A model generated the notes under the pieces. It was given only the letters and a program-made list of their open reading frames with translations. It did not search any database and was not told where the DNA came from. Shown here piece after piece: positions 1,074 to 24,957 of a stretch of 35,505 bases of DNA; the stretch's first letter is position 1; each line of letters starts with the position of its first letter. The stretch spans positions 1 through 35,505 of the forward strand of contig NZ_JASJOU010000031.1 in assembly GCF_030068605.1 (NCBI RefSeq). The letters run 5' to 3'. A program made the position numbers and the translations under genes. This DNA comes from Xanthocytophaga agilis. Lineage in GTDB: Bacteria; Bacteroidota; Bacteroidia; Cytophagales; 172606-1.

Positions 1074-2642
1074 CTACTTACCCAGCTTTCGCATTAGTTG
1101 TAAGTGAACTCCTACCGAATAGGGACGCAATCCAAATGGAGCTTGCTGAGTATAGGTAGATTCCAACGAATAATTAAATGCAGGCATGATCGTTAATTCG
1201 TAGTTGTGATTCAACATGTAGTTGTAGCCAATACCCGCCAGAATAGTATAGTTTACCTGCTTTAATACATTCTCTTTTGAAGGAAATGTAGTCGTTTGAT
1301 CCAATTGGCCGTTTACATACTGACGAGTCTGGCCTTTGAGTAACAAATTGACACCACTTCCCATAGTCAGATTAAACCTGTGGCGTCCATTCGCCTTAAA
1401 ATAATAAGTAGCAGCTATTCTAAGTCCACTATAGGTATAATCGCTTACTACCTGTCTCTGTCCGGTTTCATATACGGGTGTTATCGTAACCTGATTTGGA
1501 GCAGTCACTGTACGAATAAGTTCCTCAATGTGATCTGTTCTGTAGGAATAGCCTAGCTTCTCACTAAGTTGAGATACCATCAGATGACTTTCCACTGAAA
1601 ATCTCTTCGTAATGTATCTGCGTACATTCAGCCCCCATACATACTCCAGACGATCTTTGAGAGAAGAGTTAGCATTATTCATCCGGATGATCACAATATC
1701 ATCTGAGGTGGATGGAACAAATGTTCGGAAGGTATAACGTGGTGCGACAAACAGACCGACAGACCATCCAGCTCTATTTTCAGAGGGAATAGTAGGTTTA
1801 ATCGGAGACTCTACTTGTGGTATACTGTCAGGTTGAAATCTTGGTGTAATAGCAGGTAGTCTAACGGCTCCGGTTTGTTGAAGTGTAATATCCCGGAATG
1901 CCAGGGAATGGATAGAAGGCACAAACAGTTCAACAGAATCGTTACCTGTTCCTTTTCTGAAGTCATTATCCTTTTGAATAGGAGTACCCTGTTTTATAGA
2001 ATGTGTGACGGCTGTATGTACTGGTTCATTCAAAACCTTTGCATCCGGTCTTCGGACTGAATTACCTCGTTTACGATACAATTTCTTTTTGGATGTATTG
2101 GCTACTATTGTCAAATCATCTGATGGAGAATCCGCAGGTAGTTCTGAAAACTGAGTTCTGGTAACTGTTTTTAGTGTTTTATGGCGATCAGTAAGCAGAG
2201 TACTTCCTTCTCCGGATGTCTCTGATGGTTTAGTCTTGTTTTTAGATTTGGAAATAGTTATAGTTGGTTTATTAACAGATCGTATAGGTTTTCTGTTTGC
2301 TGATGCTACCTTTTCTTGTTGAGTGGATAATATATGTAAAGATGGTGTATCTGCTGATTCTGTATTTTGAGTTTTATTGTTTTTATGAGTTGACTCTGTT
2401 ACCGGACGATTATTTCCTGCCATTTCAGGAGCAGGTTTGTTTAGTGAGATATGATCTCTATACTTTATCAGCAAAGCAACTGTTCCTGTGACCAACAGCA
2501 GTACTGCCAGCCAGCCAAACAGACGCCAGCGACGCTTAGGTTGTATCTCTGCCTGAATAGATGCCCAACCTTGCACAGGGGGCTCCTCTTCGAGTTCCAT
2601 CATTTTGCGACGGATTTCTTCCAGTTCTTTTTCGTTCAGCAT
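1074..2642 (-). CDS. Dual-membrane-spanning anti-sigma factor candidate (inner-membrane anchor plus outer-membrane beta-barrel)
   Basis: 522 aa in three parts. Residues 1-38 are charged and cytoplasmic in character, with EEIRRKMMELEEE at the start. Residues about 41-59 form one membrane helix (LFGWLAVLLLVTGTVALLI). Residues about 60-289 are a Ser/Thr/Lys/Asn-rich linker of the kind that spans the periplasm. Residues about 290-522 show alternating aromatic/hydrophobic strands (RAGWSVGLFVAPRYTF through YSVGVHLQLMRKLGK), typical of PorT/OMP_b-brl beta-barrels. There is no signal peptide, so the N-terminus should stay in the cytoplasm. The start overlaps the stop of the ECF sigma gene by 7 nt, implying translational coupling. 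This layout matches the Dma-type dual-membrane-spanning anti-sigma factors described in Bacteroides thetaiotaomicron. The function is inferred from layout and context. Confidence 0.75.
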   Translation of the reverse strand: MLNEKELEEIRRKMMELEEEPPVQGWASIQAEIQPKRRWRLFGWLAVLLLVTGTVALLIKYRDHISLNKPAPEMAGNNRPVTESTHKNNKTQNTESADTPSLHILSTQQEKVASANRKPIRSVNKPTITISKSKNKTKPSETSGEGSTLLTDRHKTLKTVTRTQFSELPADSPSDDLTIVANTSKKKLYRKRGNSVRRPDAKVLNEPVHTAVTHSIKQGTPIQKDNDFRKGTGNDSVELFVPSIHSLAFRDITLQQTGAVRLPAITPRFQPDSIPQVESPIKPTIPSENRAGWSVGLFVAPRYTFRTFVPSTSDDIVIIRMNNANSSLKDRLEYVWGLNVRRYITKRFSVESHLMVSQLSEKLGYSYRTDHIEELIRTVTAPNQVTITPVYETGQRQVVSDYTYSGLRIAATYYFKANGRHRFNLTMGSGVNLLLKGQTRQYVNGQLDQTTTFPSKENVLKQVNYTILAGIGYNYMLNHNYELTIMPAFNYSLESTYTQQAPFGLRPYSVGVHLQLMRKLGK

Positions 2643-3178
2643 TTCTCAGAGATTGAATATTTATGCAAAAGATCCTTTAGATAATTTTTCGCTTTTGCCA
2701 GCTGGGACTTGGAAGTTCCTTCGGCAATCTGGAGCATATCGGCAATTTCACGATGGGTGAATCCTTCTACTACATATAAATTAAATACCAGTCGATACCC
2801 TTCTGGTAACTGATTGATGAGTGCCAGCAATTCCTGACTGCTGATCTGGCTTACTATATCATCCTCTGCCGGAGAGCTTTCTTCTACCAGACTATAGTCA
2901 AGATGATCCTGGTATTTACGGTTTTTGTGGTAATGGTTAATCGCAGTATTCACAAAAATACGTCGTAACCATCCTTCAAAAGAGCCCCCATTGTATGTGC
3001 GAATATTGGCAAACACCCTGACAAAGGCTTCGTGGAATATATCTTCTGCCTCAAACCGGGACCGTGTGTAACGCATACAAACAGCCATCATCTTACGGGA
3101 ATAGAGCTGATACAGCTTTTCCTGAAAAGCTGGTTTTTGCTGCTGACATCCCGCAATGATTTCCTGTTCTGAATGCAC
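2636..3178 (-). CDS. ECF RNA polymerase sigma factor (sigma-70 family)
   Basis: 180 aa, the usual ECF length. Region 2 spans about 22-88, including the EAEDIFHEAFVRVF helix (core-binding and -10 recognition) and the GWLRRIFVNTAINHYHK helix. Region 4 spans about 113-167 with the helix-turn-helix THREIADMLQIAEGTSKSQL. It directs RNA polymerase to a small regulon and is probably held inactive by the overlapping membrane protein encoded next. The upstream lipoprotein gene ends 60 bp before its start in the same direction, so the three genes may form one transcript. The start at 3178 gives a normal N-terminus. Confidence 0.95.
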   Translation of the reverse strand: MHSEQEIIAGCQQQKPAFQEKLYQLYSRKMMAVCMRYTRSRFEAEDIFHEAFVRVFANIRTYNGGSFEGWLRRIFVNTAINHYHKNRKYQDHLDYSLVEESSPAEDDIVSQISSQELLALINQLPEGYRLVFNLYVVEGFTHREIADMLQIAEGTSKSQLAKAKNYLKDLLHKYSISEKC

Positions 3179-3237
3179 GTAGTTTAAAGTTAAAAAGGAG
3201 TAATGTTGCTATTATAGTTGGTTCGATTCCGCTGGTA

Positions 3238-3912
3238 TTAGTTAACTTTCACCTTTACAATCACCTCCAGATAGGTATTGTAATTCTGGTCCGGATAAAC
3301 CCGATAGCGAAACGAATCTTCACCAGTAAAATCTTTCGGTGGCTGGTATACATAAATGGTGTTTTTATAACTACCTGCATACTCAATAGTACGAAATGTG
3401 CCTAGCTGCGGTGCATAGACAGACCTGCCAGCCATTGGACAGATGATATCATTTTCAAATATCCGGATGCCTTTTGGTGTATTTCGGGTTGTTTGCAGAG
3501 AGTCTGCCCTCACAACATTGGTACAGTTATTGGGATCCAGAGGGACTTCTATATGAAGCCGTATTTTTTGTGTTTTGCAGGTACTTTCACTACATGCCTG
3601 ATAGGTCAGACTGTCTGTCCCGAAGAATTCAGTATCAGGCTGATAATAAGTATCACCATCGGGTTGTACACTCAGTGTGCCATGAACGGGCTGACCAAAG
3701 GTAACAGTAACAGCTGTTTTCAGGCTATCATTTCCGAGTGGGTCCATCCGTATAATTCCACCTCCACCAAAGGCATAGACATCATCCTCATATAACTCGA
3801 AGTTATCAGATGATCCGGGGATTATATCTTCCGGAGTTGTACACCCTCCCAATAAAAACAAGAGTACAAGACTTCCCGTCAGGGCTCCCAGATGGCGCAA
3901 AGAGCTTTTCAT
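3238..3912 (-). CDS. Lipoprotein with Ig-like (cadherin-type) domains
   Basis: The start is set at 3912 because it places a standard type II signal peptide (MKSSLRHLGALTG...LLGGC) at the N-terminus with lipobox Cys24. A start 36 nt upstream would add an unneeded leader. The mature 200 residues contain repeated patterns, PDTEFFGTDSLTYQACS and PKDFTGEDSFRYRVY, typical of bacterial Ig-like/cadherin-like Big_9 domains, about two copies. Lys-rich strands end the protein. It is probably anchored to a membrane with binding or structural domains outside. It sits just upstream of the ECF sigma gene in the same direction. It could be a sensor partner or a regulon member; the sequence does not decide. 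Confidence 0.8.
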   Translation of the reverse strand: MKSSLRHLGALTGSLVLLFLLGGCTTPEDIIPGSSDNFELYEDDVYAFGGGGIIRMDPLGNDSLKTAVTVTFGQPVHGTLSVQPDGDTYYQPDTEFFGTDSLTYQACSESTCKTQKIRLHIEVPLDPNNCTNVVRADSLQTTRNTPKGIRIFENDIICPMAGRSVYAPQLGTFRTIEYAGSYKNTIYVYQPPKDFTGEDSFRYRVYPDQNYNTYLEVIVKVKVN

Positions 3913-4162
3913 TATACTTGACAATTTTAGTAAATTCCAGACACGCACAAATGCTTTCTGTGAGAGAAGACAGAATCTGTCAATGAACGGTTGCCTGAGA
4001 GGATTTTTTATTTTGAAATTTTTTAAGTATTGCGGAGAGACTGGATCGGGTGCAATGATAACTGCCCACTAAAAGGGTTACAAAGAAGGGTTTCCAGAGG
4101 GAGGAGCTATTCAGGAACCAAGGCAAATTAGTGTAATGCTCTTTTCTTCGTCTTTGTCAGTT

Positions 4163-5271: not shown

Positions 5272-5494
5272 TTTTTTTTAAAAAATTTAAGTAGGTCAAC
5301 AAATTTACTTATCCTGATACCGGTATATGCTGACTTATCCGCATAAAAAGTTGCTTCGTAACCTGTAATCTTGCTGTCAATAAATTATTTTATTTTTTTT
5401 ATTCTCCGGGCAACCATCCTTCTTCGCTTCCTGTCTTACCTCCAAATTCATTATTCAATACACCACACAGTTAACAACTTAACACTACACATTT

Positions 5495-6343
5495 ATGAAA
5501 ACTATGAAGGTACTATGTATAGCAGCAATTGTATTTTCTGCTATCTCTTTTTCATCCTGCAAGAAAGATTCTATTATTCTGCCTGATACAGAGCACTCGT
5601 CAGACAAGCCTGGTGATTCAGAATCTCCACAGGATACGATTCCATCCGATACCATTCCGCAAGACACAATCCCAACTGACAGTGGAGATACGGAACAGCC
5701 ACAGGGGCCAGGCAACCTGTTGAGTCAGATGGGTACAATCAAACTTAGCTATGATGCTACCTATCAACTGACCGGATATGATTCGTATAGCAACATAGGA
5801 TATACCATTGTATATGAGAATGGCCGTCCTGTTCGTCTCAACTTTACCAAACATCCTTCGTATGCGATTTACACGTATGAAGGAGATCTGGTATCAGAGA
5901 TTGTTACTTACAATGGCTATAATGAGGTATCATACCGACACCACTTTACCTATGCCAATGGGAAGCTTATCCGTGAAAGCCAGCGTAGCTATATCAGTGG
6001 CTTTCTCACTGTGGATGACTATAGCTATGACGCCAATGGCAATCTGATCCGTATTGCGGTTTCCGGAGCTGCCAGTGGGCAGGAGTCTGATCTGAAGTTC
6101 TCTTACAATGTGCTCTATGGCAATTATGACAGCCAACCTAATCCGATGCCGTTGATCAGTAGTGAGTATTATCTGCCAGGGGTTAAATTGTTTACCAATA
6201 ATCCAGGTTATCGGGAAACACCTAGTTCTAAAGAATTGTATACCTATGTATATTCTTCTGCTGGTTTGCCTGTGGAACGTGCTACAAAGCTGGAAGGCTA
6301 TTCGCATGTGCCTGCTGCCATACATAGATATAGCTATTGGTAA
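5495..6343 (+). CDS. Lipoprotein with YD-like repeats
   Basis: 282 aa. The N-terminus MKTMKVLCIAAIVFSAISFSSC is a type II signal peptide with lipobox Cys22; a start at Met4 would also work. Residues about 28-70 are an acidic, Pro/Ser/Asp/Thr-rich low-complexity linker with DTIPSDTIPQDTIPTD repeats. The rest has repeated tyrosine-rich strands (YTYEGDLVSEIVTYNG, HFTYANGKLIRES, YSYDANGNLIRIA) resembling short YD/RHS-type repeats. It is most likely a surface or periplasmic lipoprotein of unknown function. It is monocistronic: divergent from ArsR and followed by a strong hairpin. Confidence 0.85.
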   Translation: MKTMKVLCIAAIVFSAISFSSCKKDSIILPDTEHSSDKPGDSESPQDTIPSDTIPQDTIPTDSGDTEQPQGPGNLLSQMGTIKLSYDATYQLTGYDSYSNIGYTIVYENGRPVRLNFTKHPSYAIYTYEGDLVSEIVTYNGYNEVSYRHHFTYANGKLIRESQRSYISGFLTVDDYSYDANGNLIRIAVSGAASGQESDLKFSYNVLYGNYDSQPNPMPLISSEYYLPGVKLFTNNPGYRETPSSKELYTYVYSSAGLPVERATKLEGYSHVPAAIHRYSYW

Positions 6344-6376
6344 ATCCAATAGGTTATTAGAATAGGACTCATTTCA

Positions 6377-6407
6377 AATGCAAGTAAGAGATATTCTTAC
6401 TTGCATT
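6377..6407. terminator. Hairpin terminator after the YD-repeat lipoprotein
   Basis: A perfect 12-bp stem, aatgcaagtaag 6377-6388 and cttacttgcatt 6396-6407, with a 7-nt loop, lies 34 nt after the stop at 6343. It is followed by mixed rather than T-only sequence. It is probably the transcription end of the upstream gene. Confidence 0.65.
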
Positions 6408-6529
6408 GCTTATTTGTGTATAGCATGAGTGATTTTCGATGTGATTCAGAATGAGATAATATGCAACCTCCTTCCTTTCTTTTCTCAAATTTCTGATCTT
6501 TATTCTACTTGCAACATGGTACTTTTTTG

Positions 6530-6545
6530 TCACGCCACGGCGTGA
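6530..6545. repeat. Short GC-rich palindrome in intergenic DNA
   Basis: tcacgcc 6530-6536 and ggcgtga 6539-6545 form a 7-bp stem with a 2-nt loop, in a patch with GC-richer words than its surroundings (to about 6640). Nothing coding was recognised in 6408-6760. The patch may be a remnant of a dispersed repeat. Confidence 0.4.
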
Positions 6546-6763
6546 TAACCCAAAAAGGATATTTTTCTCCGATCCTTCAGCCCGCAAGCCCAAAGGCCAA
6601 CCTGGCGGAGAAAAGATTCCCAACGTACCTATACGAACATTAGCGATTGAAGGTATCTTTGCCCTCTTTGCAGCTTCTTAAAGATGATCCATTATGTATG
6701 GAATCAAAGTAAAATTCTTTTCCTCAAAATTCAGGAGGAATCGTGTATGTGTAATAAGTCTTT

Positions 6764-7026
6764 TGCGGTGAATTCCGATCAAATTCTTTTTTGCCGTGAG
6801 TTATGCGCAAAGGAAAAAATGATCGGAGTTCCGGTCAAAATTTAATTTGCGGTGAGTTATGCGCACCAATGAAAGTGATCGGAATAAAAAGCAGTTTGTT
6901 TGGTGACTGATGAAGTTGGGCTGCCCTTACAAAAAAATAGTTTGCATAGAACTATGCTCAATCCCTTTCATGCGGTGAACTCTGCACAGAGAACTTTTTG
7001 GCGTCAATTCTCATCAAATTACTTTG
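6764..7026. repeat. Degenerate tandem array with exact 28-bp period
   Basis: Units begin at 6764, 6792, 6820, 6848 and 6876, then in a second register at 6943, 6971 and 6999; every step within a register is exactly 28 bp. Unit heads read tgcggtgaattccgatca, tgccgtgagttatgcgca, tgatcggagttccggtca, tgcggtgagttatgcgca, tgatcggaa, tgcatagaactatgctca, tgcggtgaactctgcaca and tggcgtcaattctcatca. Some heads resemble the reverse complement of others, so the core is roughly palindromic. The tails are AT-rich and vary. No gene is recognised in it. It lies upstream of the nucleotidyltransferase gene. Confidence 0.7.
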
Positions 7027-7172
7027 TGAGACAAACTAAAGACAACATAAAGATATTTGATAAAATACTGCATCCGGGATGTGTCATTTTTCATCTCTTT
7101 TATTCTTATTTACAGGAAGTTATATATCTTGAGTGTTGATTTATCTGGTGTTTTATTTTTCGATTACATACA

Positions 7173-8036
7173 ATGATGATACTTCCTAAGGAAAAGCAAG
7201 AGATACTAGACACTATTGTAAAGGACTTAAAAGGTATTACAAATGTCCAGGCGATTGTATTAGGTGGTTCTTATGCAACAGGAACAGCAACGGAGACCTC
7301 TGACCTGGATATAGGAATCTATTATTACGAAAAAGCTCCTTTTGATATCAGGGAAATACAAGCTATCGCGAAGAAATATGCAAAAGACAGTAGTCCGACA
7401 GTTACTGGTTTTTATGAATGGGGTCCATGGGTGAATGGAGGTGCCTGGGTAAAAACGGCGTATGGAAAAGTTGATTTGCTTTACAAGAACATCGAACAGA
7501 TAACGACGACTATTGAGAATGCGCAGGAAGGCTTATGGGAGAACCATTTTGAGCAACAACCTCCTTATGGTTTTTCATCTATTATCTTTCTGGCAGAAAC
7601 TCAAGTGTGCATTCCTTTGTATGATCCGGAAGGCATTATTGCTAAGCTAAAATCAGCAGTACAGACATATCCTCCCAAACTAAAGCAGTTGGTAGTGCAA
7701 CAATCTTTGTGGTCTGCTGAGTTTACCATCTGGCATGCTGATTCTTTTGCTGTCAAACAGGATGTATATAATACACTGGGTTGTTTCACGAGAGCAATCA
7801 AAAACATAGTGACCGCCTTGTTTGCCCTGAATGAACTCTATCCAATCAGCGACAAAAGAGCTATTCAGGTTCTGGAACAATCAACCATAAAACCGCCACA
7901 TCTGACAGATAAGATTAATGCTGTTTTATGTGTTGATATGGATACCCTATCTGAGAATGTGGATCTGCTAAAATCACTATTCAACGAAGTGGTAGATCTC
8001 GCTCAGGAGATGTATAAGCCTGCTTATCAGTTATGA
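7173..8036 (+). CDS. Nucleotidyltransferase-fold domain protein
   Basis: 287 aa. The N-terminal 110 residues carry the polymerase-beta-type minimal nucleotidyltransferase signature: GGSYATGTAT at 31-40, followed by TSDLDIGIYY with metal-binding Asp44 and Asp46. The C-terminal part is helical (about 150-285), like the helical bundles of kanamycin-type nucleotidyltransferases and DUF4037-like proteins. It could transfer a nucleotide to a small molecule, RNA or protein; the substrate is not predictable. It stands alone, with no antitoxin-like partner (MNT/HEPN pairs have a separate HEPN gene). Starts at 7173 or 7176 are equivalent. Confidence 0.82.
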   Translation: MMILPKEKQEILDTIVKDLKGITNVQAIVLGGSYATGTATETSDLDIGIYYYEKAPFDIREIQAIAKKYAKDSSPTVTGFYEWGPWVNGGAWVKTAYGKVDLLYKNIEQITTTIENAQEGLWENHFEQQPPYGFSSIIFLAETQVCIPLYDPEGIIAKLKSAVQTYPPKLKQLVVQQSLWSAEFTIWHADSFAVKQDVYNTLGCFTRAIKNIVTALFALNELYPISDKRAIQVLEQSTIKPPHLTDKINAVLCVDMDTLSENVDLLKSLFNEVVDLAQEMYKPAYQL

Positions 8037-19689: not shown

Positions 19690-22296
19690 ATGAAACAACC
19701 TAACCACTACGCTCCACCCAAATGGCCTCTCCGGCTTTTGCGCCTGTTTGTAAAAGAAGAATACCTCGAAGAGATTGAAGGAGACATGGAAGAACTTTTT
19801 CAGGACAATCTGGAAACACTCTCTTACCGTCAGGCCCGAAGAATGTATACCTGGGAAATGATACGTCTGATGCGACCGCTTATCATGAAAAATATACGTA
19901 TTACACTATCTCCTAACCCGTATGGTATGTTTAAGAACTACTTCAAAATTTCGTTCAGAAGTTTGATGCGAAACCCGCTGAGTGCATTCATCAATATTAT
20001 GGGTTTAGCGGTTGCTATTGGCATTTGTATGCTTGTCTATGCTTTTATTGCCTATGACAACAATATTGATCAATTCCATACTCATAAACATTCTGTTTAC
20101 CTGACTACTTTTTTTGCAGATAGAGAAGGTACGCTACAACAATATGGACAAACACCAGGGCCTCTGGGGCAAATGCTTAAGGAAGATTTTGCTCAGATTA
20201 AACATGTGTGTCGGATAGAAGACAGAAATCTTGTACTAAAATATGGTGATCAGGTATTTACCGAGCGGGTACGTTATACTGACCCTACCTTTTTAGAGAT
20301 GCTTACCTTTCCTCTGAAGTGGGGAACAAGCCAATCATTAGCAGATGTAAATAGTGTGATTCTCAGCGAGGAAATGTCTGTTAAGTATTTTGGTGCAACA
20401 AATCCCATTGGTGAGAACGTTCATATAAAACTAGGCAATGCTGGAACCAAAACGTTTAAAGTGATGGGAGTAGCTGCTCCTTTTCCAAAAGCTCATGCCA
20501 TTGATTTTGATTTTCTAATCAATTTTGAAAACCTGCGTTTATCCGAATCGGATGGTGCATTACATGACTGGAATACTTTGGTCAATGCCACCCTTGTTCA
20601 GGTAGAAGATCCATCTGATCTAAAGATTATTCAACAGGGAATGGATAAGTATAAAGTTCTGCAAAACAAAGAAGTGCAGAAGGACTGGGCAATCTCTTCC
20701 TTTGCCTTTGAGCCATTGGCAACATTACATAAAAATTCAGCACAGATACGGGATGATATTTCCGTTGATCCTCCTATAGAAAGTCTGGTTGCACTGCCTG
20801 TCATAGGTATGTTTATGCTGGCTCTGGCTTGCTTCAATTATATCAATATCGCACTTGTTTCAACTACGAAAAGACTAAAGGAAATTGGTGTACGAAAAGT
20901 CATTGGAGCCAATAGAGTCCGAATCATGATTCAGTTTTTAGTTGAGAATATCTCTGTAACATTTTTTGCATTGGTACTGGGATTTATCCTGACCATTACT
21001 GTTTTTCTTCCCTGGTTTATTCCTGTATCTGGCAGAGAGTTGGAGCTTAATCTGATTGATAGTAACTTTTGGGTGTTTCTGCTGGCTATTTTATTTTTTA
21101 CAGGTATTGCCTCCGGACTATATCCTGCTTTGTATATCTCCAGATTTGATGCTGTAAAGATATTTACAGGCTCAGTGCAGTTTGGCAAAAAGAACCCATT
21201 GACAAAGCTGTTTTTGGGTATTCAGCTGGTCCTATCATGTATTCTGATCACAGGAGCTGTGGTTTATATGCAAAATACAACCTTTCAGACAATGCGTAGC
21301 TGGGGCTACAATCAGCGGGATGTATTGTATGTGAACATTCCGAACCAGTCTGCCTATGAACATTTACAGGATAAAATGCTTCAGAATGCCAATGTGCGTT
21401 CACTTGCAGGTTCAAAAGACCATCTTGGGAAAAAGATTTCTACCGCGATAATTCATACACCTGCCAATCGCCAGTACGAAGTGGAGCAGTTAGCCGTTGA
21501 TGCTCATTATGTTAATACAATGGGTTTGCAACTGTCAGATGGACGGAACTTTAACGATCAGTCTGAAAATGATAAACACACAGTCATTGTCAATGAGCTT
21601 TTGGTGAAAAACATGGAACTATCAAATCCGATTGGGCACCAGTTCCGGATAGACAGTACAAAATATCAAATCATTGGAGTGGTAAAGGATTTTCATACCC
21701 ATAGTTTTTACAATCCGATTCGACCCACTCTTTTTAAGTTAGCAGACAAGAAAGACTATCAGTTTTTGTCTGTGCAAGTGAAAAATGGTTCACAAGAGGA
21801 AACCTATCAGGCCTTACAGACTCAGTGGGCTGCTTTATTTCCGGATAGCCCCTTTCAGGGTGGATATCAGGAAGATGTCTGGGGTATATTCTTTAGCCAG
21901 TTAGCACGTATGGAAGAGTTCACCAGGACAATTGCTTGTATGGCTGTATTGCTGGCAAGTTTGGGATTGTATGGGCTGGTTTCACTCAATGTGGCGGGTC
22001 GGGTCAGAGAGTTTAGCATTCGGAAAGTACTCGGAGCCAGGCTATTGGACTTATCTGTAACCATTGCCAGACAGTATTTGGTTCTGATCGTATCTGCGTT
22101 GGCAATTGGAGTCCCCGTGAGTTATATGTTAATTCACACACAATTAAATATGATGTTTGCTTATCCAATGCCAATGGACTTTTCAGGTGTTTCGATTGCT
22201 GTATTACTACTGGTTTGTGTTTTGCTGGGTGTGATTTCTATTCAGATTAGAAAGGTAGCTAAGTCAAATCTGGTAAAGGGACTGAAAGTAGAGTAA
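19690..22296 (+). CDS. MacB/FtsX-type ABC permease with permease-prefix domain
   Basis: 868 aa. The N-terminal 1-70 is the permease-prefix domain (RLFVKEEYLEEIEGDMEE...). TM1 at about 97-121 is followed by a large MacB-type periplasmic domain, then three helices with a GxRKVIGANR coupling motif, a second periplasmic domain and a final three-helix FtsX block with RKVLGARLLDLSV. The result is two tandem FtsX halves in the inner membrane. No ATPase is encoded nearby, so it must use one from elsewhere or act without it. These proteins probably move mechanical force or export lipids, peptides or antibiotics; the exact cargo is not clear. Confidence 0.93.
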   Translation: MKQPNHYAPPKWPLRLLRLFVKEEYLEEIEGDMEELFQDNLETLSYRQARRMYTWEMIRLMRPLIMKNIRITLSPNPYGMFKNYFKISFRSLMRNPLSAFINIMGLAVAIGICMLVYAFIAYDNNIDQFHTHKHSVYLTTFFADREGTLQQYGQTPGPLGQMLKEDFAQIKHVCRIEDRNLVLKYGDQVFTERVRYTDPTFLEMLTFPLKWGTSQSLADVNSVILSEEMSVKYFGATNPIGENVHIKLGNAGTKTFKVMGVAAPFPKAHAIDFDFLINFENLRLSESDGALHDWNTLVNATLVQVEDPSDLKIIQQGMDKYKVLQNKEVQKDWAISSFAFEPLATLHKNSAQIRDDISVDPPIESLVALPVIGMFMLALACFNYINIALVSTTKRLKEIGVRKVIGANRVRIMIQFLVENISVTFFALVLGFILTITVFLPWFIPVSGRELELNLIDSNFWVFLLAILFFTGIASGLYPALYISRFDAVKIFTGSVQFGKKNPLTKLFLGIQLVLSCILITGAVVYMQNTTFQTMRSWGYNQRDVLYVNIPNQSAYEHLQDKMLQNANVRSLAGSKDHLGKKISTAIIHTPANRQYEVEQLAVDAHYVNTMGLQLSDGRNFNDQSENDKHTVIVNELLVKNMELSNPIGHQFRIDSTKYQIIGVVKDFHTHSFYNPIRPTLFKLADKKDYQFLSVQVKNGSQEETYQALQTQWAALFPDSPFQGGYQEDVWGIFFSQLARMEEFTRTIACMAVLLASLGLYGLVSLNVAGRVREFSIRKVLGARLLDLSVTIARQYLVLIVSALAIGVPVSYMLIHTQLNMMFAYPMPMDFSGVSIAVLLLVCVLLGVISIQIRKVAKSNLVKGLKVE

Positions 22297-22503
22297 GGAT
22301 AGCAGGCTTGATAAATCAGTACAGAAGGGGTGAGTGTTACCAGGTTTTGGTGTATAATGTGAATTTTAACATCTGAAGAAGATCCTCTCTGTTAAAATCC
22401 ATTTGTTTTTCATAAATTATCCTTGTTTTATGAGTTAAAGCAAGGGTAATTCATTTTGTACTTCTTCGCACTAAATGTTCACCTGTTATTCTGCTAACTA
22501 TTT

Positions 22504-24957
22504 ATGCTGAAGCATTATCTGGATTTATCACTGAGGAATATCAAAAAGAATACTATCTACTCCGCTATCAACATTCTGGGATTTTCTATTGGTATTGCAG
22601 TTGTCCTATACATTACTCAATATGTAGCATATGAGTTAAGCTATGATTCCTTTATAAATGAGGCAGAGTATATCTACAGAGTTGACCATACCCAATATAC
22701 CAGTGAAAAAGAATGGCAGGGCAGTGCAAGAAATTATTTAGGATTGGGTCCTATGCTAAAGGAAAAACTACCAGATGTAGCTGATTTTTGTAGAATTTCA
22801 AAAAATCTGGATGCAACCAGAGGGGTGCCACTTAAGTATCAGGATAAGATATTTTATGAGCAGAATGTGTATTATGTTGACAGTACTTTTTTGGATTTCT
22901 TTTCAGTACAGCTGGTAAGTGGAAATAGTAAAACTGCCTTAATGAATGGCAACTCAGTTGTGATATCAACCTCAATTGCAAAAAAGCTATTTGGAGACAG
23001 AGACCCCATCGGATTAGTAATAACTGAACTGGATAATGAAAACTCAAACCGAATAGTTACCGGAGTTTTTGAGGATATTCCTGAAAACTCTCACCTGAAA
23101 TTTGATATCCTTATTCCCATCTTTGGTGATCCTAATTATAAATTTTTTGTTCAGGACCCATGGTATTCACCTGCATGGTATACCTATGTAAAGATGGGTA
23201 GCAAGATAAAATATCAGAAAGATATTAATCTGGTAGCCACATCAATTGCCCGAACCTACAAGCCAGACTTTATAAAGAATCAATTGCGCATTGTGTTCAC
23301 ACCTGTTACATCCATTTACCTGCAATCTGATTTCAAAGACGAACTGAAAATAAATGGAAGTTTAAATCTTGTATTCTTTCTTATTCTGGTGGCATTTTTA
23401 CTGCTGGCAATCAGTAGCATCAACTACTCAAATCTGAGTATCGTGTTTGCTATGGATAGGTCTAAAGAGGTGGGGTTAAGAAAAACTTTTGGTGCCTCCG
23501 CAACTCAGTTGAGAAAACAATTTCTTATTGATTCTTTTGTAACCAATCTGCTTTCGTTGGGGATAGCGATAGTTTTGTATGTGGTGTTTTCTCCTTCCTT
23601 CAATGATATAATTGGTAAAAATATAAACGCCTCTCTGAATTATATAGCTTTTACAGGAGCTGTAATCGGAGTTCTCATCGTATCTACTTTACTCAGTGGG
23701 GCGTATCCAGCTATACTTCTTTCTTCCTTTAAACCTGTTGAAGTTTTGAAAGGGAAGCTAGTGATGAACAACAGAAGTTTTAGTTTGCGAAAGGCATTGG
23801 TCGTGTTCCAGTTTTGTATGGCATTGATACTGATTATCTGGTCTCTTTTCGTATCCGGACAATTGGAATTTATGCGTACAGCGAATATTGGTTTCAATCC
23901 GGATAACCAACTCATCATTCATAATCCTACAGCCTATAGCAGGGTTGATAACGAACATAGATATGATGACTATCTGGTTTTTAAAAAAGAAGTCCTGAAC
24001 AGCGCTGCTATTGAGAGTATTTCTACGTCTTCTTCCGTCCCAGGTACAGAGATAGGCTTTACCTATGTCAATTCTATAAAGAAGCAGGCAAATGGAGTAT
24101 ATGATCCAACACCCTATAAGGTAATGTATGTAGGATACGACTATCTAAGCCAACTGGAACTTCAATTACTGGCAGGGAGAAATTTCTCAGAAGACTTTCC
24201 TTCCGATGTTAAGTATGGAAGTATTATTCTAAATGCTGAGGCTATAAAGGTTCTGGGCTATTCTTCCCCTGAAGATGCCCTGAACAAATATATATACTTC
24301 CAGCAGTTAGATGAGTGGGAAAAGGTGCAGATTATTGGTGTTGTAAAAAACTATCGGCATGTATCCCTAAAAAGTCCTGTATCACCCACACTTTTTTACC
24401 TAAGCCAGGATAAGGGGCAACAGGTATTTTACTCACTGAAATTTGCAAAGAACAGCCCTCAGCATGTGATAAGTAGTGTGAAGGATATATGGAAAAAGGT
24501 GTATCCCGGTAAACCCTTCAATTACTTCTTTTTGGATGATCATTATGACATTCAGTATGCACATGAGAAACGATTACAACTACTTACCACTTTCTTTTCC
24601 AATGTTGTGATCTTTATCTGCTGTCTTGGTTTAATAAACCTGGCCTTATTTGAAGGGAAAAAACGTTCCAAAGAAATTGGAATCCGAAAAGTCCTTGGAG
24701 CAAGTCGCCGATCCATACTCTTCCTTCTCATGGCTGATTTCCTGAAGCTGGTAATTCTGGCCAATATCATTGCCTGGCCTATTGCTTATCTGATTATAAA
24801 TAAATGGCTCCAGAGTTATCCTGAAAGGATACATATTAATGGCATACTATTTCTGGTTGCAAGTTTGGCATCTATCGCTCTGGTGATGCTTTCAGTTTTC
24901 CTTTCTACCTATAAAACAACTAATATTAACCCCGTCAAAGCCATAAAAAGCGAATAG
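22504..24957 (+). CDS. MacB/FtsX-type ABC permease
   Basis: 817 aa. It has the same two-half MacB/FtsX plan as its upstream neighbour but without the prefix domain: TM1 at about 18-40 (YSAINILGFSIGIAVVLYI), periplasmic domain, SKEVGLRKTFGASATQLRKQ coupling motif, second periplasmic domain and the closing block with RSKEIGIRKVLGASRRSIL. It ends VNPVKAIKSE-like (INPVKAIKSE), the standard terminus. It is 207 bp after the first permease and may be an independent unit or the end of the PadR operon. Confidence 0.92.
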   Translation: MLKHYLDLSLRNIKKNTIYSAINILGFSIGIAVVLYITQYVAYELSYDSFINEAEYIYRVDHTQYTSEKEWQGSARNYLGLGPMLKEKLPDVADFCRISKNLDATRGVPLKYQDKIFYEQNVYYVDSTFLDFFSVQLVSGNSKTALMNGNSVVISTSIAKKLFGDRDPIGLVITELDNENSNRIVTGVFEDIPENSHLKFDILIPIFGDPNYKFFVQDPWYSPAWYTYVKMGSKIKYQKDINLVATSIARTYKPDFIKNQLRIVFTPVTSIYLQSDFKDELKINGSLNLVFFLILVAFLLLAISSINYSNLSIVFAMDRSKEVGLRKTFGASATQLRKQFLIDSFVTNLLSLGIAIVLYVVFSPSFNDIIGKNINASLNYIAFTGAVIGVLIVSTLLSGAYPAILLSSFKPVEVLKGKLVMNNRSFSLRKALVVFQFCMALILIIWSLFVSGQLEFMRTANIGFNPDNQLIIHNPTAYSRVDNEHRYDDYLVFKKEVLNSAAIESISTSSSVPGTEIGFTYVNSIKKQANGVYDPTPYKVMYVGYDYLSQLELQLLAGRNFSEDFPSDVKYGSIILNAEAIKVLGYSSPEDALNKYIYFQQLDEWEKVQIIGVVKNYRHVSLKSPVSPTLFYLSQDKGQQVFYSLKFAKNSPQHVISSVKDIWKKVYPGKPFNYFFLDDHYDIQYAHEKRLQLLTTFFSNVVIFICCLGLINLALFEGKKRSKEIGIRKVLGASRRSILFLLMADFLKLVILANIIAWPIAYLIINKWLQSYPERIHINGILFLVASLASIALVMLSVFLSTYKTTNINPVKAIKSE

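Follow-up and report, generated by a model that had tools for sequence, protein, structure and literature searches.

What does an immunoglobulin (Ig)-like lipoprotein do in front of an extracytoplasmic function (ECF) sigma factor and a protein that appears to reach from the cytoplasm to the outer membrane? This question is raised by a three-gene locus of Xanthocytophaga agilis in a 35,505-nucleotide (nt) stretch of DNA, hereafter the window, which constitutes one contig of a 9.77 Mb genome. The genes lie on the (-) strand and follow one another in the direction of transcription as an Ig/cadherin-like lipoprotein gene (3238-3912; 224 amino acids (aa) from the ATG at 3912), an ECF sigma factor gene (2636-3178; 180 aa, GTG start), and the gene of a 522-aa protein resembling the Dma-type anti-sigma factors (1074-2642; ATG start). 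The lipoprotein gene is located 59 nt upstream of the sigma gene, which in turn overlaps the 522-aa gene by 7 nt (2636-2642). The closest named relative found was Xanthocytophaga flavus, with 95% identity in the 522-aa protein. A Dma-type anti-sigma factor is a single protein that relays a signal from the outer membrane into the cytoplasm; the signal and direct regulon of such factors are not settled. We present GGCAAC-N18-GTCTT as a predicted promoter code, and in the window we predict two direct target transcripts, both led by a lipoprotein gene. A further outcome is a lipoprotein partner that is conserved and has a distinctive anchor motif. The locus probably encodes a one-protein trans-envelope sigma switch, with the Ig-like lipoprotein mainly as its principal output. 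Domain layout, gene order, co-inheritance, and the promoter motif with its location are computational results; topology of the switch, its sigma binding, release signal, and transcription, as well as the exposure and role of the lipoprotein, are what we infer.

The 522-aa protein can be divided into four segments. Residues 1-36 (2535-2642, (-) strand) form a predicted cytoplasmic anti-sigma segment with an EPPxxxWxxI motif, residues 37-65 (2448-2534, (-)) a predicted inner-membrane helix, residues 66-291 (1770-2447, (-)) a putative disordered periplasmic tether of about 225 residues, and residues 292-519 (1086-1769, (-)) a predicted OmpA-like outer-membrane beta-barrel. The most hydrophobic segment begins at residue 41 (hydropathy 2.47). 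The AlphaFold2 model contained short helices at residues 3-14 and 22-32, a long helix at 37-65, no structure at 63-288 (10-residue means of the predicted local distance difference test (pLDDT) of 25-46, mostly below 30), and strands at 292-519 (means of 47-93, many with good local confidence). Its low overall confidence (mean pLDDT 53.8, predicted template modeling (TM) score 0.42) is expected because half of the chain is disordered, which also explains the TM-score of about 0.25 by query length against OmpA. The OmpA transmembrane barrel nevertheless gave the best Foldseek matches in the PDB (9fzc, E 1.3e-7; 9fzd, TMt 0.73), and Pfam placed OMP_b-brl_2 (PF13568) at residues 291-493 (E 1.4e-6, 28.9 bits). 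A sequence search of solved structures with the barrel found no match up to E 1.

The homologues agreed with this architecture. An E-x-P-P-x-x-x-W-x-x-I motif was conserved at their N-terminus, W-x-x-[IVLF] preceded the membrane helix in 71 of 79, and none of 48 homologues tested had a hydrophobic stretch within the first ~30 residues. The tether measured 77-398 aa (median 224.5) in 68 of the 79, the other 11 having no barrel-profile match. A fully stretched 77-residue chain is about 26 nm long, close to the width of the periplasm, so that even the shortest tether could just span it. Zinc-type anti-sigma factors (ZAS) are class I anti-sigma factors with a cysteine/histidine zinc motif in the N-terminal domain; the translation contains no cysteine in residues 1-60, and the N-terminal part is therefore not a zinc-type domain. 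Together, the original prediction of a Dma-type protein without a signal peptide, with one inner-membrane helix, a long linker, a barrel in residues 290-522, and a 7-nt overlap with the sigma gene was borne out by structure prediction, homologues, and gene coordinates, and a trans-envelope layout is supported, with topology and sigma binding remaining predicted features. Additionally, three short proteins of the same genome (G000:C20:136930-137418, C20:182741-183025, and C9:332541-332966; frames of 151-264 aa) match the Dma profile in its N-terminal part only, and are perhaps anti-sigma factors with the same cytoplasmic segment and no barrel.

The sigma factor carries only Sigma70 regions 2 and 4 (Sigma70_r2, E 5.8e-15; Sigma70_r4_2, E 1.9e-15), which identifies it as an ECF sigma factor. 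It matches TIGR02937 (E 2.3e-30), and its profile matches solved ECF sigma factors such as SigH, SigE, and SigW. It is not of the FecI type by TIGR02985, for which it scored 90.5 bits against a cut-off of 126.4.

The pairing of the two genes extends well beyond the window. A barrel profile (A4, E 1e-4) matched 47 of the 291 genomes of the order searched, in 53 rows representing 52 genes; leaving out a 92-aa contig-end fragment (genome G208) and adding locus L073, which joined the set because of its lipoprotein, gave 52 stretches including the window. In 48 of them, the barrel gene directly follows an ECF sigma gene, and the remaining four comprised two stretches cut at contig ends and two plain porins. 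The spacing ranged from a 116-nt overlap to a 33-nt gap, the largest overlaps being due to uncertain gene starts. A search of the class found like proteins in other genomes, and all 19 loci chosen outside the order, hand-picked from the best rows (L174 without upstream sequence), had a sigma gene beside the barrel gene. The 305 of 395 class genomes matched were rejected as a count of Dma proteins, since they include plain barrels of 240-300 aa and only three candidates per genome were scored.

The Ig-like lipoprotein gene was present 16-448 nt upstream of the sigma gene at 21 of the 48 sigma-Dma loci of the order (20 of 47 without L073), including the close pairs window/L009, L053/L054, L057/L058, L067/L074, and L072/L073, and at none of the 19 class loci outside the order. 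The linkage was reciprocal. Among the matches listed for the lipoprotein, 26 (20 plus a further 6) had frames below 500 aa and were not already at a Dma locus, and a sigma gene of this type followed in 18 of these, 16 of which also had a Dma match (of the other two, L159 breaks off at this point and L166 lacks a match). The first 20 contributed 17 of them, the exceptions being L152 and L154, without sigma, and L160, cut at a contig end; the further 6 contributed L227, the others being contig-edge pieces (L224-L226) and two loci without sigma and, by eye, without a lipobox (L228-L229). Thus, the eight without a counted sigma comprised four cut by contig ends, two lacking lipobox and sigma, and two lipoproteins without a nearby sigma; L225 was not counted, having a more distant sigma downstream (E 3e-16) and no Dma match. 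At L159, L163, L164, and L166 a protein of ~370-518 aa intervenes between lipoprotein and sigma, and in the three scanned, CarboxypepD_reg was found together with a type IX secretion tail, and in two of them with PKD as well. The gap was 648 nt at L168, where the lipobox was not clear. A lipoprotein-like match in genome G001 (L017, L021) was rejected, as the open reading frames (ORFs) listed for its region are those of other genes and include no sigma-Dma pair. Low-scoring copies of the promoter motif described below (12.3 and 14.7, a range in which chance sites are equally frequent) stand directly in front of the L152 and L154 lipoproteins, which are possibly regulated in trans, or have the motif by chance.

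The genome of the window itself encodes three full-length Dma-type proteins, two of them behind an Ig-like lipoprotein. The second full triplet, L072 (G000:C2, 5751-9399), consists of a 422-aa Ig-like lipoprotein, a sigma factor, and a 583-aa Dma protein, with a related promoter, TAGACAAC-N18-GTCTTTA, which was among the training sites of the weight matrix described below; the third pair, L169 (G000:C2, 5591-7925), has no Ig-like lipoprotein in front. Both matches of the window lipoprotein in its own genome (E 1e-3) were at these modules, and a broader profile (A6) gave four, with both modules among the matches listed. Paralogous modules within one genome (window/L072, L162/L163, and L164/L165) each retained their own lipoprotein lineage. 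Distances in the gene trees also agreed (n=32; sigma-lipoprotein r 0.71, Dma-lipoprotein r 0.79, sigma-Dma r 0.82), although shared species history accounts for part of these Mantel correlations, and the trees, compared by eye without support values, place L012, L059, L078, and L158, for example, differently; the paralogue pairs are therefore the better evidence of co-inheritance. These results indicate that the lipoprotein is a conserved, co-inherited operon partner and not a chance neighbor. Gene order in related genomes, for which random arrangement had been named as a counter-indication, is not random, either for sigma and barrel (48 of 52) or for the full triplet (21 of 48). The suggestion of an undescribed third component held as to a conserved partner, and needs one correction: lipoproteins next to pairs of this kind have a described precedent, nigD appearing to occupy this place in Phocaeicola vulgatus.

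The upstream region of the operon points to its regulation. In a de novo search for paired 4-mers before the lipoprotein genes, CAAC-N18/19-GTCT occurred in 14 of 26 deduplicated regions, whereas no pattern exceeded 10 regions in four shuffled sets. The strict pattern CAAC-N16-19-GTC preceded 20 of 38 lipoprotein genes (mean 1.56 and maximum 5 in 200 shuffles), or 16 of 31 without near-copies. At loci of the order and of the own genome without an Ig-like lipoprotein, it was found directly before the sigma gene in 15 of 28 (shuffled mean 1.09, maximum 6). It was found in none of the 38 lipoprotein-sigma gaps, which says little because only 0.57 would be expected by chance. In the window, an exact GGCAAC-N18-GTCTT match lies before the lipoprotein gene at 3967-3995 on the (-) strand (matrix site 3965-3997). 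With the promoter ahead of the lipoprotein gene, the operon looks autoregulated, lipoprotein first, and we regard the motif as a predicted ECF-type promoter from which transcription would start.

A weight matrix trained on 11 sites, the window operon site among them, was then applied to 1,113,977 bp. It gave 25 sites scoring at least 18, compared with 0-5 (mean 0.76) for 25 column-permuted matrices. Subtraction of the 11 training sites and five near-copies (L009 twice, L058, L073, and L074) left nine sites, of which six precede a lipoprotein gene, two a sigma gene (L098 and L182), and one lies inside a reading frame (L160). The six are L010 (a divergent gene for a 688-aa lipoprotein, at a distance of 230 nt), L055 (a 491-aa lipoprotein encoded downstream of Dma), L060 and L065 (from one genus), L071 (an ORF of 117 aa found by lipobox scan), and the window site at 5407. 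The lipoproteins behind the sites at L060, L065, L071, and L064 (a weaker site, 13.5) are not Ig-like, and Pfam gave no match for those of L060 and L071; the operon therefore seems to start with a lipoprotein slot into which various folds fit.

The window site at 5407 is an exact match on the (+) strand (5409-5437; matrix site 5407-5439), scores 21.5, and was outside the training set. A 282-aa lipoprotein gene (5495-6343, (+); CKKD after the lipobox), starting 56 nt past the matrix site, is thereby a predicted second target of the same sigma factor; its RHS/YD-like match is very weak (PF05593, E 0.0067, below cut-off). Both window sites are unchanged in G006, a very close relative. Of five genome-wide exact matches with an 18-base spacer, only the two window sites scored above 20, the others reaching 12.4, 3.7, and 1.4; four matches with a 17-base spacer fell outside matrix scoring. 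A genome-wide regulon based on exact matches was rejected, as several lie within long open frames, and a 320-aa gene also follows the low-scoring one at L193 (1.4). Similarly, a second target shared across genera was rejected, the 282-aa, 491-aa (L055), and 688-aa (L010) lipoproteins being not homologous. The L010 lipoprotein (5451-7517) is a divergent PKD protein beside the triplet with its own motif copy (site 7747, (-) strand), and its ortholog at L011 is likewise divergent and has no site scoring at least 12.

Several observations weigh against this interpretation. The Pfam score of the barrel is barely above the cut-off of 27 bits, and the full-length model was built on five aligned sequences. 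In the de novo search, low-complexity patterns such as TTTT-N16/17-TTTT (12 real regions) likewise rose above the highest count of the shuffled sets; for the sigma-only set, CAAC patterns reached 12 regions, which is not above the shuffled sets (10-15). The strict pattern is absent before 18 of the 38 lipoproteins (the upstream sequence of L053 is short). Two or three of the matches before the other 20 (L163, L164, and perhaps L059) resemble chance, and in the class stretches the pattern precedes only 5 of 20 sigma genes (shuffled mean 0.66, maximum 4). Matrix sites scoring 12-18 (30 of 55) are about as numerous as in permuted controls, and the exact motif occurs nine times genome-wide versus ten in a reversed-pattern control, so that genome-wide counts alone mean nothing. 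Finally, the predicted second targets vary between genera and are non-homologous, and it is possible that the sigma gene has a separate weak promoter.

We propose that the Dma-type protein would be anchored in the inner membrane and, by means of the tether, in the outer membrane through its OmpA-like barrel, and that its first ~36 residues would keep the sigma factor at the inner membrane. If the outer membrane or its surface were disturbed, the barrel would sense this, and the sigma factor would be released and would transcribe from GGCAAC-N18-GTCTT promoters, its own operon first and the lipoprotein gene at 5495 second. Transcription of the operon would provide positive feedback and re-supply of the inhibitor (lipoprotein, then sigma, and Dma), and the Ig-like lipoprotein may act as an outer-membrane coat or repair protein, in the position that NigD holds in Bacteroidales. 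Given NigD as a parallel and the promoter identified in this work, the lipoprotein is more probably an output of the sigma factor than a sensor input.

The structure of the lipoprotein and its anchor bear directly on this choice. The ATG at 3912 fits a 23-residue signal peptide, and the lipobox is LLGG/C, followed by TTPEDIIP; a GTG at 3948 would give an alternative frame of 236 aa (3238-3948, (-)). Pfam found Big_9 in two stretches (E 1.9e-15) and, up to E 1, only Cadherin_5 and Cadherin_4 besides, with no NigD family. The AlphaFold2 model showed beta-sandwich domains (mean pLDDT 85.5), and Foldseek matched the Ig-like parts of GH107 endo-fucoidan hydrolases first, then protocadherins and titin Ig tandems; the TM-scores by query length were at most 0.38 among the matches listed, and therefore only the Ig/cadherin fold class is supported. 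A sequence search of solved structures gave a single match, at E 1. After the cysteine, the operon lipoproteins share a motif of approximately C-[DN]-x-[VIF]-x-[ED]-D-x-x-P. Of the 38, seven near-copies and L168 were dropped, leaving 30, which were compared with 60 further lipoproteins from these stretches that passed a stricter lipobox rule: D, N, or E occupied position +2 in 28 of 30 versus 14 of 60, an acidic residue +7 in 73% versus 25%, and proline +10 in 20 of 30 versus 6 of 60, and V, I, or F was present at +4 in 21 of 30. The window copy (CTTPEDIIP) is an exception at +2 and fits only the ED-x-x-P part, one residue earlier. The surface-export signal of Capnocytophaga, given in the excerpted text of PMC5080379 as K-(D/E)2 or Q-A-(D/E)2, is also acidic; the motif found here is more specific, and it could therefore act as a signal for export, as a peptide for docking, or as both.

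These features leave a tangible, if smaller, chance that the lipoprotein is instead an input, acting as an antenna or latch with the Dma barrel, so that its loss or ligand binding would release the sigma factor and autoregulation would restore the latch as negative feedback. Such a role would agree with its close linkage to sigma-Dma modules and their co-inheritance, with a post-cysteine motif exceeding what a generic export signal would seem to require, with an Ig/cadherin-type fold suited to binding, and with the RcsF/outer-membrane-protein (OMP) complexes of Escherichia coli, which, as far as the abstracted accounts go, are a precedent for sensing by a lipoprotein and a barrel. However, sigma-Dma pairs occur without the Ig-like lipoprotein at 27 of 48 loci of the order and at all 19 of the class, and it is therefore dispensable for signalling in general. 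Moreover, unrelated lipoproteins occupy the same place at L060, L064, L065, and L071, the window copy is shorter by one residue and not acidic at +2, and NigD, in the excerpts cited below, is an output. A bolder form, in which lipoprotein and barrel would constitute one sensor, we think unlikely: here, by analogy with a proposal made for RcsF and OMPs, the conserved peptide of about CDxVxEDxxP that starts with the lipidated cysteine would dock on or pass through the barrel, with the Ig domains as an outside antenna whose displacement would be relayed through the tether to the sigma factor.

Returning to the lipoprotein as an output, the proposal depends on GGCAAC-N18-GTCTT being read by this sigma factor. 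It is rather improbable that the motif is the site of another regulator and that the sigma factor acts elsewhere, even though the strict pattern is missing before 18 of 38 lipoproteins and the link between sigma and motif is predicted from sequence. AAC and GTC halves at this spacing are the usual ECF promoter pattern, and the motif tracks the operon start, standing before the lipoprotein gene if present and before the sigma gene if absent. A mere co-transcribed passenger in front of an ordinary porin-type barrel beside an unrelated sigma factor, for which the weak Pfam score of the barrel and the 27 of 48 loci without the Ig-like lipoprotein might speak, is highly improbable given the conserved N-terminus and membrane helix (71 of 79), the sigma adjacency (48 of 52 and 19 of 19 stretches), the reciprocal linkage seen from the lipoprotein side, and the promoter ahead of the lipoprotein.

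Beyond the 522-aa gene, no additional ORF follows on the (-) strand in the ORF list, and the next gene is a convergent ABC transporter ATPase (204-914). Elsewhere, the window encodes a nucleotidyltransferase-domain protein (7173-8036), whose MntA-type antitoxin match is weak and below cut-off, and a tandem pair of MacB/FtsX-type permeases of 868 and 817 aa (19690-24957).

Among known systems, FecR-type anti-sigma factors with a TonB-dependent transducer carry an outer-membrane signal to an ECF sigma factor and need a separate receptor. The present locus differs from them in a sigma factor below the TIGR02985 cut-off and an anti-sigma factor without a FecR domain among its Pfam matches. The RcsF-OmpA/OMP system has no sigma factor and no inner-membrane tether; it would resemble the present one if the lipoprotein were an input, since there, in the abstracted accounts, a lipoprotein acts with an outer-membrane barrel in stress sensing.

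The layout is most similar to that of Dma1/Das1 and Dma2/Das2 of Bacteroides thetaiotaomicron, which, in the excerpts of PMC13088901, combine an anti-sigma N-terminus, one inner-membrane helix, a disordered tether, and a C-terminal barrel, with an adjacent ECF sigma gene; this is a comparison of layout and not of sequence. Dma2 is described there as a four-part protein with a putative ECF21 sigma factor, and the operon is induced when the anti-sigma factor is lost, whereas autoregulation here is predicted from a promoter motif. The present locus differs in that its lipoprotein is located upstream and is Ig-like (Big_9).

EcfO-Reo of Bacteroides fragilis and P. vulgatus shares the order of a sigma factor followed by an envelope-spanning anti-sigma factor, and also a lipoprotein gene beside the sigma gene. 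In the excerpts of PMC9308784 and PMC13114119, Reo is a predicted periplasm-spanning protein with a barrel in the outer membrane, ecfO was induced 33-fold by an antibacterial toxin in P. vulgatus, and the system responds to envelope stress, EcfO driving NigD surface lipoproteins; its regulon includes three of these, called surface lipoproteins of unknown function, as well as further lipoproteins, and the nigD with the consecutive locus tag belongs to it. The P. vulgatus locus tags are consecutive (nigD M0N98_03762, ecfO 03761, reo 03760) and reo is stated to be downstream of ecfO, from which we infer the order nigD-ecfO-reo (PMC13114119, PMC9308784). The lipoprotein here differs in being a Big_9 protein without the NigD family in Pfam, and can be read as a non-homologous counterpart of NigD. 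In the titles and abstract starts of the open-licence PubMed Central literature, no Ig-like lipoprotein beside such a sigma/anti-sigma pair was described, and neither the promoter motif, the anchor motif, nor the breadth of the Ig-lipoprotein slot in the order was found in the open-licence literature searched there. Taken together, the type of system is already known, and the Ig-like lipoprotein in this slot, the promoter motif, and the anchor motif appear to be new. These comparisons suggest a slot beside the sigma gene that holds NigD in Bacteroidales, and Ig-like or other lipoproteins in the order studied here.

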